Shown here: one piece after another, positions 580 to 8,541 of the stretch
Position numbering within the stretch: the stretch's first letter is position 1
Layout of the letters: the number at the start of each line of letters is the position of its first letter
From: a bacterium
GTDB lineage: Bacteria > CSSED10-310 > JAJRTK01
NCBI GenBank assembly: GCA_024278345.1
Contig: JAJRTK010000339.1
Span: 1-8,740 of the forward strand
Direction: 5' to 3'
DNA length: 8,740 nt
The notes under the pieces: model-generated
Database searches by the model: none
What the model saw: only the letters and a program-made list of their open reading frames with translations
What the model was told of the DNA's origin: nothing
Translations under genes and position numbers: made by a program

Positions 580-3500
580 GTGTCGAAGCAGCGACCGAAA
601 AAGATTGGCTCTTACCGGGTTCTGGGAGTTCTGGGCCAGGGCGGGATGGGGGTCGTTTACCGTGCGGAAGATGTGGAGACCGGTGAATCCGTGGCCCTCA
701 AGACGGTGCGCCTGCCTCATGCGGGGCTGCTCCAGGGGTTTCGGCGGGAGATTCACACTCTTGCGCGGATTCGGCACCAGTGTATCGTTCGCATCGTGAA
801 TCATGGCGTTTTCAGGGGGCTTCCCTGGTATGCCATGGAGCTTGTTGAGGGGGTGAGCCTGGCTCAATATGCGCCGGGACGGCGACGGGATGCTCCCACG
901 GTGGAGGTGGAGCGAGTGCCTGAAGCGGATCTCAGGGCGCGAGCCGCCAAGAAACGGCGGGAGAAAGGGGCGGCGCGAGAGAGTAACGTGGCTGACGAGC
1001 CCACCGACCCTCTTTTTCGAGACCCTGACGCGGTGCGGGCCGGGCCTGTCCGGAAAGAGGAAACGACGCGGATGGAGGAGGCGCTGTCGGAGCCGGCTTC
1101 AGGGAACCGAACCGATACGATGAGTGGCTCGTCGGGGGGCGTGTCGCCGACGGATACGGTGACGGGGAAGATCTTGAGCTGGCGGTCTTCCGATTCGGAA
1201 TCTCCATCGAAGGTGCCGGATGGGGCTAGCAGGAGTTGGACGTCGTTCGAGGAGCTTCGGCCTATCTTGACCCTTGTTCGGCGGTTGTGCGATCCGCTTT
1301 CCTACCTGCATGGCGAGGGCATCGTGCATGGCGACCTCAAGCCGGCGAACGTCTTGATCCGTCCTGGCGGCGTGCCCGTACTTGTCGATTTCGGGGTGAC
1401 GTCGCAGTTTCATGGGCCTCTCAGTCTGGCGAAGTCGCGGATCGAGCGGGGCGTGGTGGGGACGGTGAACTACATGGCTCCGGAGCAGGCCCGCGGGGTT
1501 ACGGTGGATGCTCGGGCGGATCTCTATTCCCTGGGTTGTATTCTTTATGAGCTTTTGACCGGCGCACCGCCCTTCGTCAGCGAATCTGCTTACGAAGTGG
1601 TTCGGAGTCATATCCACACGAAGCCGCTTCAGCCTTCGAAACTTGTGCGAGGTGTGCCGCCGGAGCTGGAGCGTCTGATCCTTCGGTTGCTCCAGAAGAA
1701 GCCCCAGGATCGCATGGGCTACGCTGATGACGTTGCGGCCGCGCTAGAGCGGATCGGCGCGGAGAACCCGCCGCCTGTCAGGGCCAGGAGGCCGAGGGTC
1801 TACCTCTACCAACCGCGCCTTTGTGGCAGGAACGATCAGCTCAAGATCTTGCACCGGCATCTTGGCGCTCTGGGGGAAGGCCGAGGCCGGGTCGTGGTTT
1901 TGGGTGGCGAGAGTGGTGTTGGCAAGACGCGCCTCATCATGGAGTTCAGCCGGGAGGCTGTACGGGGCAAGGTGCGCGTGCTCACCGGGGAGTGTTCCAA
2001 TGCCCGGGTCCGCCCCTTACAGGGGTTGCTCAGGCCGTTGCAGGCCATTGCGGATCAGTGTCGGGAGAAGGGGGCTGAGGAGGCGGAGCGGATCTTGGGG
2101 CGCCGGGGTCCGCTTTTGTCGCTCTACGAACCGCTTCTGGAAGAGATACCCGGAATGAGTGACCACCCGCCTCCGGTGGAGCTGGCCCCCGCCGCCGCTC
2201 GGCGGCGGCTGTTCCGGTATCTGTCAGAGGTGCTCTCAGAGCTGGCCTCCCGGGGGCCCGTGCTTCTGGTCATCGAGGATTTGCAGTGGGCGGATCAGCT
2301 CACAATCGGCTTCCTTGAGGCCTTGGCCCAAGGGCGCACGCTAGAGACGTCGCGGTTGCTGGTCGTGGGCACCTACCGGAACGATGCGCCGGCTCCCGGG
2401 CTTCATGGCCTCTTTTCTTGTCCGGGCGTGACGAACCTGGTCCTCGACCGCCTGGACAGCGAAGCGGTCACCAGTATCGTGGGGGACATGCTGGCTTACC
2501 AGCCGCCGCCGGAAGTTTTTTCCAAGTTCGTCGTGGAGCAGTCGGAGGGAAATCCTTTCTTCATCGCGGAGTATTTGCAGGCGGCCGTGGCGGAGGGGTT
2601 GCTCTTCCGGGACGAGCATGGCCTGTGGCAAGTCCGAGGCGAGAGGGACGAATCGGAGATCCTGAAAGTTTACCGCGAGCTGCCGTTGCCCCGCTCTCTC
2701 CGGCATCTTGTGGAGCGCCGTTTGATTCGCCTCCCGTCTGTGGCTAGAAAGCTCATCGAGCTGGCGGCCGTGGTGGGGCGCAATGTCTCCACAAGCCTGC
2801 TCTATCGGGCTTCGAGGCTGCGTCAGGACCAATTCTACGAGGCCTTGGCCGACCTTCTTCGCCACCAGATCCTGGAAGAGGTGGAAGCCACTGGCGACCT
2901 GCGATTCGTTCATGACAAGCTCCGGGAAGTCGCCTACCAGAGGTTGACCGTCCGCCGGCGCCCGCAACTTCACCGGACTATCGCCAGGAGCATGGAGCGC
3001 CTTTTCTTGCAGGATCGAGAGCTTCGCTTCGCGGAGCTGGCTTGGCATTGGCGGCAAGCTGGAAATCAAGAAAAGGCACGAGAGTTCTACCTGGCCGCGG
3101 CGCGGAGGGCCCGGGATCGGTACGCCCAGGAGGAGGCGGAGCATTTGTACGGCTCGTTTTTGGAGCTTTCGGAGCAGCCGTCGCCGGAACGCGTCGCCGC
3201 GGCCAACGAGCTTGGCCGGCGGGTACTGGGCATCCAAGGCCGATACGAGGAAGCCGTCGTCCAGCACCAGCAGGCTCTGGCCGATGCCAGGCAATTGGCC
3301 GACAGCCGGCTGGAGGCCAGTAGCCTCGAATGCCTGGGCTGGGTCTACTTCGTTCAGGGCGCCATGATCCGGGCACGGAGCTTCTACGAAGAGGCGCTGC
3401 GGATCGCCAACCAGACAGGTGACCAGAAGAACGAGGCCCGGATCCTTGTGGATCTTGCCACGCTGAATGCGCGGCAGGGGCGGACACAAGATAGCTGTTT

Positions 3501-4419
3501 TCTTTACGAGCAGGCTTTGGCCACGGCCATGGAGGTGGGGGATCGCCATACCGAGCGCTTGGCTTTGGGCTACCTGGCGGATCTGCATCGGGATCTGGGC
3601 AATCTTGCGGGCGCCCGGCCTGTCTATGGGGCGGTCTTGGCTCTTGCCGTGGAGTTGGGCGATCGCGAGGGCGAGGGCCAAGTTTTGAACCATCTGTCGA
3701 TCCTGGAGCGGGCGGATGGCAATTACGAGGAAGCGTGGCGCCTTTGCGAGCGCGCCTTGGCGATTTTTCAGGAAATCGGGGATTTGCCGGGGGAAGCCCG
3801 AGTTTTGACAAGCCTTGGCGGGATGCACGTGGGTAAGGGGTGGCTTCCCGGGGCAAGAAAGCTGTACGCGCGGGCGCTGACCATTGAACGGGAGAGCGGT
3901 CGCGTCATCGGGCAGGGGATTGTTTTGACGCATCTGGCGAATCTCCGGCGCGTGGAGGGTCTCTTGGACGATGCGTTGGAGCTCGTGGAACAGGCGCTTC
4001 TCGTCTTTCGGGATTTGGAAGACGGGATGGAGACCCTTCGGGCGCTTTGCTGCAAGGGGCATATCCTCTTGGCGCTGGGGAAATCTGCCCGCCACTGGCT
4101 CCAGCAGGCGCGGAAACTGGATGCGCAGTTGGGGGTCGTGGGGCAAGCGGGAGCATCGAGCCAGGCCGTGGAGCGCCTGCAGAGGGCGCAGGACGCCTTT
4201 GAAAGTCATACGCCAGCCCGCTTGTTCCGGGGGAAGTTCATCGCGGATATTCCGCCGGGTCTCCGTGGCTGGATGGTGGAGACCGGGCAGCTTGCGAAGG
4301 AGCGCGGGAACGCGATGATGGAGAAGCCGTCGGCTCCGGGGAAAGGAAAGAGCGTCACAGCCGAAACTTTAGCGCGGCGGCGGTCGGTACCCAGTCATGT
4401 GTCGAAAATGCGGCGTTAG
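580..4419 (+). CDS. Ser/Thr protein kinase fused to a signalling AAA ATPase and TPR array (PknK-like architecture)
   Basis: The 1279-residue protein probably acts in cytosolic signal transduction; I see no signal peptide or membrane span. Residues 12-390 are a Hanks-type Ser/Thr kinase: glycine loop GQGGMG 19-24, ATP lysine K41 in VALK, helix-C glutamate probably E57, catalytic loop HGDLKPAN 250-257 with D252, DFG 270-272, APE 300-302 and DARADLYSLG 310-319. About 120 extra residues (98-220) split the two lobes after the hinge MELVEG. Residues about 410-640 are an AAA/STAND-type ATPase following an LCGR linker motif, with Walker A GESGVGKT 443-450 and Walker B LLVIED 562-567 running into the family motif LQWAD. 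A GNPFF motif (657-661) and FVHDKLREVAY (776-786) mark the helical/winged region usual after this ATPase. Residues 873-1152 are seven TPR units. The tail from about 1230 is basic and low in complexity. Family knowledge says kinase-AAA-TPR proteins couple ligand or partner sensing by TPRs to kinase output. The substrate and signal are unknown. Confidence 0.93.
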   Translation: MSKQRPKKIGSYRVLGVLGQGGMGVVYRAEDVETGESVALKTVRLPHAGLLQGFRREIHTLARIRHQCIVRIVNHGVFRGLPWYAMELVEGVSLAQYAPGRRRDAPTVEVERVPEADLRARAAKKRREKGAARESNVADEPTDPLFRDPDAVRAGPVRKEETTRMEEALSEPASGNRTDTMSGSSGGVSPTDTVTGKILSWRSSDSESPSKVPDGASRSWTSFEELRPILTLVRRLCDPLSYLHGEGIVHGDLKPANVLIRPGGVPVLVDFGVTSQFHGPLSLAKSRIERGVVGTVNYMAPEQARGVTVDARADLYSLGCILYELLTGAPPFVSESAYEVVRSHIHTKPLQPSKLVRGVPPELERLILRLLQKKPQDRMGYADDVAAALERIGAENPPPVRARRPRVYLYQPRLCGRNDQLKILHRHLGALGEGRGRVVVLGGESGVGKTRLIMEFSREAVRGKVRVLTGECSNARVRPLQGLLRPLQAIADQCREKGAEEAERILGRRGPLLSLYEPLLEEIPGMSDHPPPVELAPAAARRRLFRYLSEVLSELASRGPVLLVIEDLQWADQLTIGFLEALAQGRTLETSRLLVVGTYRNDAPAPGLHGLFSCPGVTNLVLDRLDSEAVTSIVGDMLAYQPPPEVFSKFVVEQSEGNPFFIAEYLQAAVAEGLLFRDEHGLWQVRGERDESEILKVYRELPLPRSLRHLVERRLIRLPSVARKLIELAAVVGRNVSTSLLYRASRLRQDQFYEALADLLRHQILEEVEATGDLRFVHDKLREVAYQRLTVRRRPQLHRTIARSMERLFLQDRELRFAELAWHWRQAGNQEKAREFYLAAARRARDRYAQEEAEHLYGSFLELSEQPSPERVAAANELGRRVLGIQGRYEEAVVQHQQALADARQLADSRLEASSLECLGWVYFVQGAMIRARSFYEEALRIANQTGDQKNEARILVDLATLNARQGRTQDSCFLYEQALATAMEVGDRHTERLALGYLADLHRDLGNLAGARPVYGAVLALAVELGDREGEGQVLNHLSILERADGNYEEAWRLCERALAIFQEIGDLPGEARVLTSLGGMHVGKGWLPGARKLYARALTIERESGRVIGQGIVLTHLANLRRVEGLLDDALELVEQALLVFRDLEDGMETLRALCCKGHILLALGKSARHWLQQARKLDAQLGVVGQAGASSQAVERLQRAQDAFESHTPARLFRGKFIADIPPGLRGWMVETGQLAKERGNAMMEKPSAPGKGKSVTAETLARRRSVPSHVSKMRR
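3196..4035 (+). repeat. Seven tandem tetratricopeptide-type units, 40 residues (120 nt) each
   Basis: Residues 873-1152 of the kinase fusion repeat with an exact 40-residue period. The marks are a G at the helix A-B turn followed by a small or charged residue, an A three to five positions later, an EEAL/EQAL/ERAL-like core in helix B, and a GD-type turn. Asp codons fall at 3301, 3421, 3541, 3661, 3781 and 4021, exactly 120 nt or a multiple apart; the unit at 3901 has Arg instead. The DNA copies have diverged, so this is a protein repeat and not a recent tandem duplication. A period of 40, not 34, is typical of the kinesin-light-chain/GPSM-like TPR subclass found in signalling ATPases. It forms a protein- or peptide-binding superhelix. 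Confidence 0.85.
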
Positions 4420-4464
4420 CTCCGCCGTGCATGAAATCGCTGGTGAGCTCTGCTCCCTGGCTAG

Positions 4465-4476
4465 AGGGAAGGAAGG
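4465..4476 (+). promoter_or_regulatory. Purine-rich ribosome binding site selecting ATG 4482
   Basis: AGGGAAGGAAGG at 4465-4476 lies 5 nt before ATG at 4482. The in-frame upstream ATG at 4431 is preceded by TAGCTCCGCCGTGC, which has no Shine-Dalgarno match, so 4482 is the better start. Confidence 0.65.
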
Positions 4477-4481
4477 TGGCC

Positions 4482-7400
4482 ATGATCCGTTATTTCATAA
4501 AACCATTCGGTCTGATGGCTGGAAGCGGCGCAAGGGTGGAGCGTTGTTTTTCCCGGGAGTTTAGCATTGCGAGGCTGAGCCGCGCCACGCTCATCTGGGT
4601 CGCTCTGGTTTTCGTCTTTTCGGGCGTTGAGCTATTAGAGCCCATGGCCGGCCCTCGTGCCACCCCGGAGGATCTGGTCATTTTGTGGTCCGGGGTCGCC
4701 AGCAGCTTGGACATCGAAGGAGGAGAGCTCTTTTGGGTCGCTGGCGTCGGAGGCGAATTCTGCCCTCCGTACGCCATGGTCCGCAAGCTAAACCTGGCCA
4801 CCGGCAACACATCCATTTTTCGCCGATCCTGCGCGGTTTCCCCCAAGGGCGTCTCCGCCGACTCGTTCCACGTCTATTACGGCAACTTTACAAGCCTGTC
4901 CATCGAGAGGCAGAGGCTCGATGGGAGCCTTCTGGAATCCGTGGCGGCGACCGTAGGCAGTATTTCAGATATTTTGGGAGACACGAGCGCCATTTACTTT
5001 TCCGATACCGAGGGCGTCAAGAAATACGACAAGTCAACCGGCAGCGTCACCACTTTGTCTGCCGGAGCCTCCGCTAATCGTCTGGCGTTGAGCTCCAATT
5101 ACGTCTATTGGACGGACAAGGCGGCGGGGACGGTGTGGAGAGTCTCCGTTTCCGGCGGCGGCGCGGAGCTCGTGACATTTTTCCGGACTGCGTTGGATCA
5201 GATCGCCTTCGGGCACGTGGAGGGCGACGGAACCGAGAACGTCTACATTGTCGATGACGCTGGCATTCACCGGATACGCGTGGAGCCATTCACCACGGCG
5301 AAGCTCGTCTCCACCGCTGCGGGCGAGGTTATCGGCGACATTGCGGCAAACTCCGGGTATCTCTATTGGACCAGCTACCAGACGGCGGCGCCGTCGAGTA
5401 CGGGGCAACTACGTCGCATCCCCCTCTCCGGGGGGGGCGCGGAGACCATGGCCTCGGGCTTGAACAAGCCCACGACGCTCATCCTCTCCGATACTCACGC
5501 CTATTGGAGTTCGCCTGTCAGACTCTGGCGCTTGCCCCTGTCGTCGGCGCCACAGACGGTGGATTTGAGCCTGGAAGCGATAGGAGCGACCCAGGGGATC
5601 CAGAACTGGGCCAACGACGTGCCCCTCGTGGCCGACAAGGTGACTTACGTGCGCGTTTATCCCACCGTCACATCCGTCGATACCTCGGCGACCGCTCTGC
5701 TCTACGGTTTCCGGGACGGCGTCGCCCTGCCCGGGTCGCCCTTGTCCGGCAGGTTCAATTCCATCGTGGTGAAGGCCATCGATCCGGATCGCGGGTCCAC
5801 CCGGGATAATTTCTCTTTCTGGTTGCCCCCTGACTGGAGGACCGGGACCGTGACCCTCCGGGCGGAGATCAATCCCGACCGGGCCGTGAGTGAATCGGAT
5901 TACGACAACAACGGCATCTCGATCACGCGGACCTTCCGGACCAAGTCTCCCGTTTGCGTGGCCGCCTTGCCTCTGGCCATGTCGGACGGGCGGCGCTTCC
6001 AGAAGGATGCTCCCGGCTTCCAGGAGATCGTGGACCGCTTCCTGAGCCTCTGGCCGGTCCCCGAAGTCTACGTCCTTCCCGAAACCGCCACCATCACCAA
6101 GCCTTTCGGCGGAGAGTTCAATCTTCCCGGGGACGGTGGCAAGGTCATCTACCACCTTTGGGATTACGACAATTGGCATGGAGACCCCGACTATTGTTCC
6201 AGTCGGTCCGCCGGGATCCACTACATGGGGATGGTGCATCCCGACACGAACACCGGCAATCAGCTTGGTTACGCAAGCCTTTGGACTTACCAATCCTACG
6301 TCAAGATGCAGTGGCACCATCGCAGAGGATGGCCCGAGTTTGCGCGAGCCCGTGGCGGAGCCACCATGGCCCAGGAACTGGCCCACAACCTCAACGGGGA
6401 TCCCACCTTCAACGGAAATCGCCTCGGCCATGTCGATTGTCGCGACCCATCGGGCGTGGACACCAACTATCCCTACGACCCGAATACCATCGCCAATGCC
6501 GGCGTGGGGACCTTTTGGGGTTTTGACTCCTTGTCAAGGACGCCCATCGAGCCAGCCAGCGCAAGGGACTTCATGTCCTACTGCGAACCGGCTTGGGTCT
6601 CCGACTACAATTGGAAAGGGGTCATGGACCGCGTCAACAACGGGCGGTCCGTCTCCAAACCCCGCCGATCACCCACCGTTCCGCAGATCATCCTGGCCGG
6701 CCTGGTGGAGCACGACGGAGAACCGGCTTCCTTCCCGGTCCTCTACAAGCTCGATCCGGAGATCATCGATCTGGGCAACTGGAACGACCTCATCGACAAT
6801 CGAAATGCTCATCTAGGCATTCCCACGGACTACGCCGTGGATTTCCTGGGCGCCGGTGACGCGGTTCTGGCCTCTTATCCCGCTTACCCCACCTCCACCC
6901 ATGGCCGCGGTGTCCGCAGCGAGCCGTTGCAGCCGGGCTTCCTCCTGGCCATCGACGAGATCAGCGGCCTCGAAGCTCTTCGAATCACCATGAACGGCGT
7001 CGAACAGGTTCGCCAGAAACTCAGCGCGAATCCCCCCACCGTCCAGCTTATGGAGCCCACGGGAGGCACCGTCGCGGGAGCTCTCACCATCCGCTGGCAA
7101 GCCTCGGATCCCGACGGAGATCCACTGCTCTCCGTCGTGCAGTACAGCGCCGACGGCGGCGCCAACTGGACGGTCCTGGGCTTCAACCTCGAAGGTCAGA
7201 GCCTGATCGTCCAGGATACGAGCGCGCTCCCCGGTAGCGCCAGCGCCCTGGTGCGAGTCGTTGTGCGGGACGGCTATTACACCGCCTTCGATACGTCCAC
7301 CCCTTTTGAGATGCCCAATCACGGCCCGGCAGTCACCATCCGGACTCCGCGACAGCGAGAGCTGGTTCCTCCCGACGCCCAGGTGATCTTCGCCGGAGTC

Positions 7401-7697
7401 GCCTTGGATCCCGAAGAGGGGCCACTGTCAGGAACCGCACTGGAATGGCTCGTCGATGGAGCGCTCGTTGCCACCGGATCGGAAGGCACCACCCGTGGCC
7501 TTGTCCTGGGCGAGCACACCATCACCCTTCAGGCTCGAGACTCCCTGGGAAACAGCGGGAGCGCCAGTGTGACGATCTTCGTCGGCGACGCGCTTCCCGT
7601 GCCCATCTCGGGAACGGCACTCCTTCTGGTACTGCTGCTTCTTGCCGTAGGAGGCGCCGTCCTCTTCCGATCCAGGCCCGGAACCAACGAAGCCTGA
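4482..7697 (+). CDS. Exported multi-domain protein: beta-propeller, CARDB-like, degenerate metallopeptidase-like, Ig-like domains and C-terminal membrane tail
   Basis: The 1071-residue protein is probably cell-surface or secreted. Numbering is from ATG 4482; starting at ATG 4431 adds 17 residues. A hydrophobic segment at 35-49 after a basic N-region is a signal peptide or anchor, with an unusually long n-region. Residues about 64-355 are a beta-propeller with repeated aromatic strand motifs (LFWV 83-86, IYFSD 171-175, VYWTD 208-212, LYWTS 294-298, AYWSS 340-344), like YWTD/DUF5050-type repeats. Residues 362-486 are CARDB-like, with ATQGIQ and a SESDYDNN turn. Residues 487-725 resemble a metzincin-like peptidase: QELAHN 631-636, a downstream GH (H650), and a Met-turn DFMSYC 696-701 followed by WVSDY. 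The first zinc His is replaced by Gln, so activity is doubtful. Two Ig-like domains follow at 851-946 (YSADGGANW, DG turns) and 947-1036. The tail VPISG 1040-1044, a hydrophobic stretch and FRSR resemble PEP/IPTL-type sorting signals. Substrate is unknown. The gene may share a transcript with the kinase gene 62 nt upstream. Confidence 0.88.
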   Translation: MIRYFIKPFGLMAGSGARVERCFSREFSIARLSRATLIWVALVFVFSGVELLEPMAGPRATPEDLVILWSGVASSLDIEGGELFWVAGVGGEFCPPYAMVRKLNLATGNTSIFRRSCAVSPKGVSADSFHVYYGNFTSLSIERQRLDGSLLESVAATVGSISDILGDTSAIYFSDTEGVKKYDKSTGSVTTLSAGASANRLALSSNYVYWTDKAAGTVWRVSVSGGGAELVTFFRTALDQIAFGHVEGDGTENVYIVDDAGIHRIRVEPFTTAKLVSTAAGEVIGDIAANSGYLYWTSYQTAAPSSTGQLRRIPLSGGGAETMASGLNKPTTLILSDTHAYWSSPVRLWRLPLSSAPQTVDLSLEAIGATQGIQNWANDVPLVADKVTYVRVYPTVTSVDTSATALLYGFRDGVALPGSPLSGRFNSIVVKAIDPDRGSTRDNFSFWLPPDWRTGTVTLRAEINPDRAVSESDYDNNGISITRTFRTKSPVCVAALPLAMSDGRRFQKDAPGFQEIVDRFLSLWPVPEVYVLPETATITKPFGGEFNLPGDGGKVIYHLWDYDNWHGDPDYCSSRSAGIHYMGMVHPDTNTGNQLGYASLWTYQSYVKMQWHHRRGWPEFARARGGATMAQELAHNLNGDPTFNGNRLGHVDCRDPSGVDTNYPYDPNTIANAGVGTFWGFDSLSRTPIEPASARDFMSYCEPAWVSDYNWKGVMDRVNNGRSVSKPRRSPTVPQIILAGLVEHDGEPASFPVLYKLDPEIIDLGNWNDLIDNRNAHLGIPTDYAVDFLGAGDAVLASYPAYPTSTHGRGVRSEPLQPGFLLAIDEISGLEALRITMNGVEQVRQKLSANPPTVQLMEPTGGTVAGALTIRWQASDPDGDPLLSVVQYSADGGANWTVLGFNLEGQSLIVQDTSALPGSASALVRVVVRDGYYTAFDTSTPFEMPNHGPAVTIRTPRQRELVPPDAQVIFAGVALDPEEGPLSGTALEWLVDGALVATGSEGTTRGLVLGEHTITLQARDSLGNSGSASVTIFVGDALPVPISGTALLLVLLLLAVGGAVLFRSRPGTNEA

Positions 7698-7801: not shown

Positions 7802-8458
7802 CTAGATCCACCCCAGCCAGTAGCCAAACAGGGTCGCCAAAACTCCCAGGAAGGCGAACAGACCTCCCACGATCCAGGCTTTTTGCCGAACCGTGGGAAG
7901 GTCGTGGACCCAGAAACAGACCAGGAAGAACTGCAAGTAACCAAAAAGGAAGATCAGGTACGGAGCCCGAGCATTCCAGAAGCTCCAGTCCCATGTCAAG
8001 GCGCCGATGGAGTTGAGGCAGACGATCTCCACCAGGACGCAGAAGACCGAGCCCGCCACCGCGATGAAAAGCCGGTTCGGTAGCCCGAGAATCCTCAGCT
8101 TCCGGTCTTTCGGAAGGACCTTGGAAAAGGCAATCCCCGCAATGGCGAACATGAAGCAAATCTCGATGTTCAACCCCACAAGAATCAAATAGGCCGTCTT
8201 CCCGGGCGCGCCCCAGAGCGGCGCATAGCCCGAAAAATGCAGAACCAGCGAGTTCATAATCTCGTTCAGCCAGTCCATCCCCCAAAAGGCCAGCCCCGCA
8301 AAAACCTGGTTCCAATTCCGTTTCTCGATTTCCACGGCATAAACGTAGACGACAAAGGCAAAAAGTGGGATCACGGTCCACTGAAACAGGCTGGGATCCC
8401 GAAGGATCGCAAGGGCTTGCCGAGCGGATTCCGTGGGCATGGTCAAGATCGATTCCAA
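7802..8458 (-). CDS. Six-span integral membrane protein of unknown function
   Basis: I do not recognise this protein. From a TTG start at 8458 it has 218 residues, beginning MESILTMPTESARQALAI. TTG is preferred because AAGGAG sits 7 nt upstream. ATG at 8440 would begin seven codons in, and ATG at 8539 would add an Arg/Ala-rich leader lying almost on the proposed -10 box. About six hydrophobic spans are visible, near residues 27-45, 52-73, 88-111, 130-150, 166-184 and 195-216. Polar residues sit inside or at the edges of spans: N65, E66 and N69 (WLNEIMNS), N97 and E99 (LNIEI), E144 and N149 (VEIVCLN). Other marks are the loop motifs LPKDRKLRILGLPNR (115-129) and WVHDLP (183-188), and many Trp. 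These buried acidic and amide residues suggest an enzyme or transporter, but no motif identifies which. The gene stands alone, convergent with the exported-protein gene. Confidence 0.85.
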   Translation of the reverse strand: MESILTMPTESARQALAILRDPSLFQWTVIPLFAFVVYVYAVEIEKRNWNQVFAGLAFWGMDWLNEIMNSLVLHFSGYAPLWGAPGKTAYLILVGLNIEICFMFAIAGIAFSKVLPKDRKLRILGLPNRLFIAVAGSVFCVLVEIVCLNSIGALTWDWSFWNARAPYLIFLFGYLQFFLVCFWVHDLPTVRQKAWIVGGLFAFLGVLATLFGYWLGWI

Positions 8459-8465
8459 AGCCAGT

Positions 8466-8471
8466 CTCCTT
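8466..8471 (-). promoter_or_regulatory. Strong Shine-Dalgarno (AAGGAG) pointing to a TTG start
   Basis: On the minus strand AAGGAG lies 7 nt before TTG at 8458-8456. It is 25 nt from the next in-frame ATG (8440), too far to serve it. This fixes TTG as the most likely start of the membrane-protein gene. Confidence 0.65.
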
Positions 8472-8541
8472 TTTTGCCTTGCGTTCCGCTCCCATCGCAC
8501 GCCGTCCGGCGCAGCGCTGCTCGCCCGTTTCGCCGCCACTA

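Follow-up and report, generated by a model that had tools for sequence, protein, structure and literature searches.

The 8,740-nucleotide stretch of bacterial DNA analysed here (the window) encodes a 1088-residue multidomain protein, in which a domain of predicted metzincin fold carries glutamine in place of the first zinc-binding histidine, followed by a lengthened spacer ahead of the third. Three His ligands are the defining feature of metzincins. From the sequence comparisons and the structural model, the most likely reading is that this domain belongs to a secreted metallopeptidase, predicted to be active, whose metal site is Gln/His/His, a reading that we hold with moderate confidence. 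The features of the window are collected in Table 1, and residues are numbered from the ATG at 4431.

Table 1. Features of the window, with positions on the 8,740-nucleotide stretch
Feature	Position	Strand	Basis or remark
Ser/Thr kinase fused to AAA ATPase and TPR repeats	580-4419	+	Upstream neighbour, 11 bases from the metzincin gene
Gene for 1088-aa multidomain protein	4431-7697	+	Stop codon included
Metzincin catalytic-type domain, residues 504-750	5940-6680	+	AlphaFold2 model, VIA-align, profile recruiting HExxHxxGxxH relatives
QELAH motif, residues 648-652	6372-6386	+	Q648 replaces first zinc His; E649, predicted general base; H652, predicted second ligand
About nine extra spacer residues, 656-664, from helix end to third His	6396-6422	+	Alignment of the motif region; placement approximate
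H667, aligned with third zinc His of HExxHxxGxxH relatives	6429-6431	+	Alignment
C670 of the H-x-x-C motif	6438-6440	+	Invariant in 98/98 alignment rows
Met-turn DFMSYC (M715, Y717)	6567-6584	+	Conservation of 90% or more in the Met and Tyr columns
C-terminal hydrophobic segment, then Arg-containing tail	7587-7694	+	Read from the translation

The reading frame is open across all 1088 codons, as anticipated in the original prediction of an intact frame of more than 1000 codons. The domains of the protein are arranged in the order N-terminal hydrophobic segment, beta-propeller-like region (with a weak NCBIfam SinM match at residues 316-373), CARDB-like match (weak, residues 456-495), metzincin domain, C-terminal Ig-like repeats and C-terminal transmembrane segment. 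The last of these is likely a surface-sorting or membrane anchor, and the protein probably acts at the cell surface, as judged from this anchor together with the N-terminal hydrophobic segment, the propeller-like region and the Ig-like repeats. The upstream kinase/AAA/TPR gene is possibly cotranscribed with the metzincin gene. On the minus strand, 7802-8539 encodes a 245-aa protein that probably spans the membrane several times and has no convincing Pfam match. When the flanking genes were compared across relatives, no neighbour was found in common, so that the gene context gives no hint of a substrate.

The motif region of the translation reads GGATMAQELAHNLNGDPTFNGNRLGHVDC. In the window domain the HExxHxxGxxH zinc motif is replaced by QExxH, with the third His 15 residues on rather than 6. 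The codon CAG at 6372-6374 specifies Q648, followed by E649, L650, A651 and H652 (codon at 6384-6386), and the next His is H667, 15 residues past H652. Both deviations, QELAH for HExxH and the displaced third His, agree with the original prediction, except that its label H650, counted from an in-frame ATG at 4482, corresponds to H667 in the present numbering. The Met-turn DFMSYC followed by WVSDY was also found as described there. In the alignment, the relatives bridge the canonical HExxHxxGxxH and the window motif step by step, and H667 is aligned with the third His. The residues E649, H652, H667 and C670 are invariant in the 98 aligned domains, and Y717 is invariant in the 53 full-length domains.

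The AlphaFold2 model of the window domain, built on the 98-sequence alignment of relatives, gave pLDDT 91.3 and pTM 0.89, superseding an earlier run on 26 sequences whose C-terminal half came out badly (pLDDT 63). By VIA-align, the model matched adamalysin II (1iag) and ADAM8 (4dd8) with Z 13.3, and its top 50 structural matches were all metzincins (Z 11.8-13.3), the best showing rmsd 3 to 3.5 Å across about 170 residues; models without a clear match typically reach a best Z of 7-8. Since the TM scores obtained with Foldseek were modest (0.34-0.47 for the best rows), the Z values of VIA-align were used instead. No peptidase was matched when the window domain was searched against Pfam, NCBIfam and PDB sequences, and a profile of 26 relatives reached snake venom metalloproteinases weakly (best E 0.013). 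By its predicted fold, the window domain is a metzincin, in agreement with the family layout originally proposed.

Relatives were collected in two ways. The first scan of genome contigs used MAQELAHN among its seeds and yielded 22 loci, all 22 with Gln and most reading MAQELAHNxGRKHVNC or near, a fraction that is biased because the seed itself contained Gln. Later profile searches of about 1,500 genomes were not seeded with Gln, but 22 of the 26 profile rows were those of the first scan plus the window. These searches gave 121 distinct domains, most of them HExxHxxGxxH or near. Among the 53 full-length domains, Gln is present in 28 (window included) and His in 25, counts that, given the origin of the profile rows, provide no estimate of the frequency of Gln. 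The Gln rows span Chloroflexota, one Acidobacteriota MAG, Planctomycetota and the window's own phylum (eight genomes in the set searched), and the window is 35-42% identical to most other Gln members. The genome of the window itself (G000) contains a paralogue, L002 (contig C263, about 4193-4591), with a similar multidomain layout, the canonical HELAHNHGRKH and the Met-turn DLMTYF; its motif region reads HELAHNHGRKHINC. One planctomycete locus, L025 (about 5457), has Gln and normal spacing; its motif Gly is replaced by Asn (QELAHNQNRQH), and its Met-turn contains Leu (DFLSYC).

Gln and His codons are one base apart and the paralogue in the same genome has His, as might be expected if the codon at 6372-6374 reflected a sequencing error or gene decay. 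This explanation is very unlikely, close to negligible, because Gln occurs at the aligned position in independent genomes, in 27 other distinct domains with open frames. Their codon is CAG in most rows and CAA in L010, L021, L026, L027, L133 and L135, indicating that synonymous change took place while Gln stayed. For the close Gln pairs that could be estimated, dN was 0.08-0.22 against dS of about 0.9-1.7 (mostly by simple NG86, the larger dS values being near saturation), and the Gln-bearing domains are, on this comparison, under purifying selection. With open frames in the relatives as well, the earlier view that gene decay is unlikely is borne out. As the swap has been kept in 27 other distinct bacterial domains, Gln on sequence grounds represents a durable variation of the metal site rather than an error.

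Gln and the long spacer can occur apart from each other. Twenty of the 53 rows combine Gln with normal spacing, in seven Gln is found where 11 residues separate the two His, and in the window where 14 do, so that 6 or 9 spacer residues are added in the seven Gln relatives and the window. A single row among the 53, L103, has the first-ligand His together with a long spacer (10 residues between His); its motif, located near the locus centre, reads HEMAHNYNGLGDRWKHVDC, and it is 79% identical to the Gln-bearing L007. From the 20 Gln relatives with normal spacing and from L103, the alignment indicates that Gln and the long spacer are distinct traits, neither being unique to the window gene. When the trait columns were left out of the tree, the nine rows with a long spacer (the window, seven Gln relatives and L103) clustered with support of 90/61, which is not strong, and the spacer changed once. 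A clade of the Gln rows plus L103 was not rejected (AU p 0.39), compatible with one His-to-Gln origin and one reversal in L103. A single clade of all Gln rows minus L103 was rejected (p 1e-96), owing to the nested position of L103 within the Gln rows; its inclusion removes the conflict. Outside this set, the distant relative L080 (HELGHILSAQGLRH) retains His and has 8 residues between His, one more spacer length in the wider family.

Several other residues appear to vary with the ligand. Gln goes with A615 and usually also with M599, Y614, S622, M646, A651 and F714, and the His-bearing L103 has V599, G615 and L646, the usual states of His members. This co-variation is suggestive only, since the two or three independent changes are too few for significance; the sign tests involved 2 pairs and lacked power.

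If another His completed a standard zinc site, Gln would be irrelevant. The original prediction had named a nearby His of this kind as evidence against a variant site, and replacement His residues were sought in the alignment columns. H597 is present in 27 of the 28 Gln rows, and further His residues exist in the domain, but H597 is also found in 20 of the 25 relatives with the normal first His, and none of the His columns is restricted to the Gln rows. We give this explanation a small probability.

Two readings had been offered originally, a variant metal site and a non-catalytic domain that kept the fold. Under the latter, Q648 would put an end to catalysis and the domain would persist as a module for binding or as a decoy, like ADAM22, which is non-catalytic and also appears among the structural matches of the window model. 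Consistent with such a module, the domain lacks one canonical zinc ligand out of three, and the protein bears propeller-like and Ig-like regions. Among zincin-like families, substitutions in HExxH are common, and Gln is the commonest replacement for His in proteins generally (PMC3650047), which weighs against a Gln/His/His site. On the other hand, none of the 28 Gln rows has lost the catalytic Glu, either of the other two His, the Cys or the Tyr of the Met-turn, the substitution is Gln in 28 of 28 and never another residue, and L103 carries His within the Gln clade. In inactive metzincins, it is usually Glu or several of the ligands that have gone. Loss of catalysis is thus a serious but distinctly less probable alternative. 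The variant metal site is favoured because Gln is fixed in a subfamily in which Glu649, His652, His667, Cys670 and Tyr717 are invariant, under purifying selection and with two Gln codons in use.

A working metzincin needs Glu, two His, the Met-turn and Tyr, those retained here, and the side-chain oxygen of Gln can coordinate metal. In the favoured model, the protein would be an extracellular, surface-anchored metzincin, with Gln648, His652 and His667 binding the catalytic metal, Glu649 acting as general base and Tyr717, which follows the Met-turn, playing its usual stabilising part. The ancestor would have been a normal HExxHxxGxxHxxC metzincin; His was replaced by Gln, probably once, with several residues around the site changing alongside, and a sub-branch may later have lengthened the loop ahead of the third His. 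The longer loop most likely bulges outward, leaving the third His unmoved. Metal coordination by Gln648 and activity of the enzyme are suggested by the conserved residues.

Taken singly, each deviation has a precedent among metzincins, the Volvox protease VMP3, the nearest tested example, for Gln and leishmanolysin for the spacer. With VMP3 and gametolysin (M11), the window shares QEXXH for HEXXH in an extracellular metzincin-type protease, but VMP3, from a green alga, has normal spacing to the third His, whereas the bacterial window domain has the longer spacer. The Pfam M11 profile gave no match to the window domain and one weak match among the 26 relatives (E 0.023). The QEXXHXXGXXH site of VMP3 is described as copper-preferring in PMC7717551, with reference to Heitzer and Hallmann 2002. 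With leishmanolysin/GP63 (M8), the window shares extra residues between Gly and the third zinc His, without demonstrated sequence relation; leishmanolysin keeps the first His and has a far larger insertion, of 62 residues at that place (PMC11957388), compared with 9 extra residues and Gln in the window. Adamalysin/reprolysin (M12B) and ADAM proteins have in common with the window the predicted fold (Z about 13, about 170 residues), the xExxH helix, the third His and the Met-turn; the window differs in Gln for the first His, the longer spacer, the HxxC motif and an identity of about 11-16%. The Pfam Reprolysin (M12B) profile gave no match to the window domain and weak matches in 2-3 of the 26 relatives (best E about 0.001). 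The bacterial HExxHxxGxxHxxC ... D-[LF]-M-S-Y domains (L002, L063, L102 and others) belong to the same profile family and share the Cys, the Met-turn and the W-x-S-D-Y block, but have the first-ligand His and six-residue spacing. In the open-access literature, most subscription journals lying outside the search, no description was found of the present bacterial family or of the combination of Gln with the spacer.

By analogy with one distant algal enzyme, VMP3, Gln possibly tunes the choice of metal, perhaps to a non-zinc metal. A bacterial metzincin subfamily that hydrolyses peptides with a Gln/His/His site on a non-zinc metal such as copper, one branch having an expanded ligand loop, is proposed tentatively and may well prove otherwise. 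Searches for the HExxH motif overlook true members of the metzincin fold. Since the Gln clade keeps every other catalytic residue and both states occur among close relatives, the relationship between ligand choice and metal preference is directly testable; if the non-zinc reading is true, the His-bearing L103 would be a natural experiment on the ligand switch.
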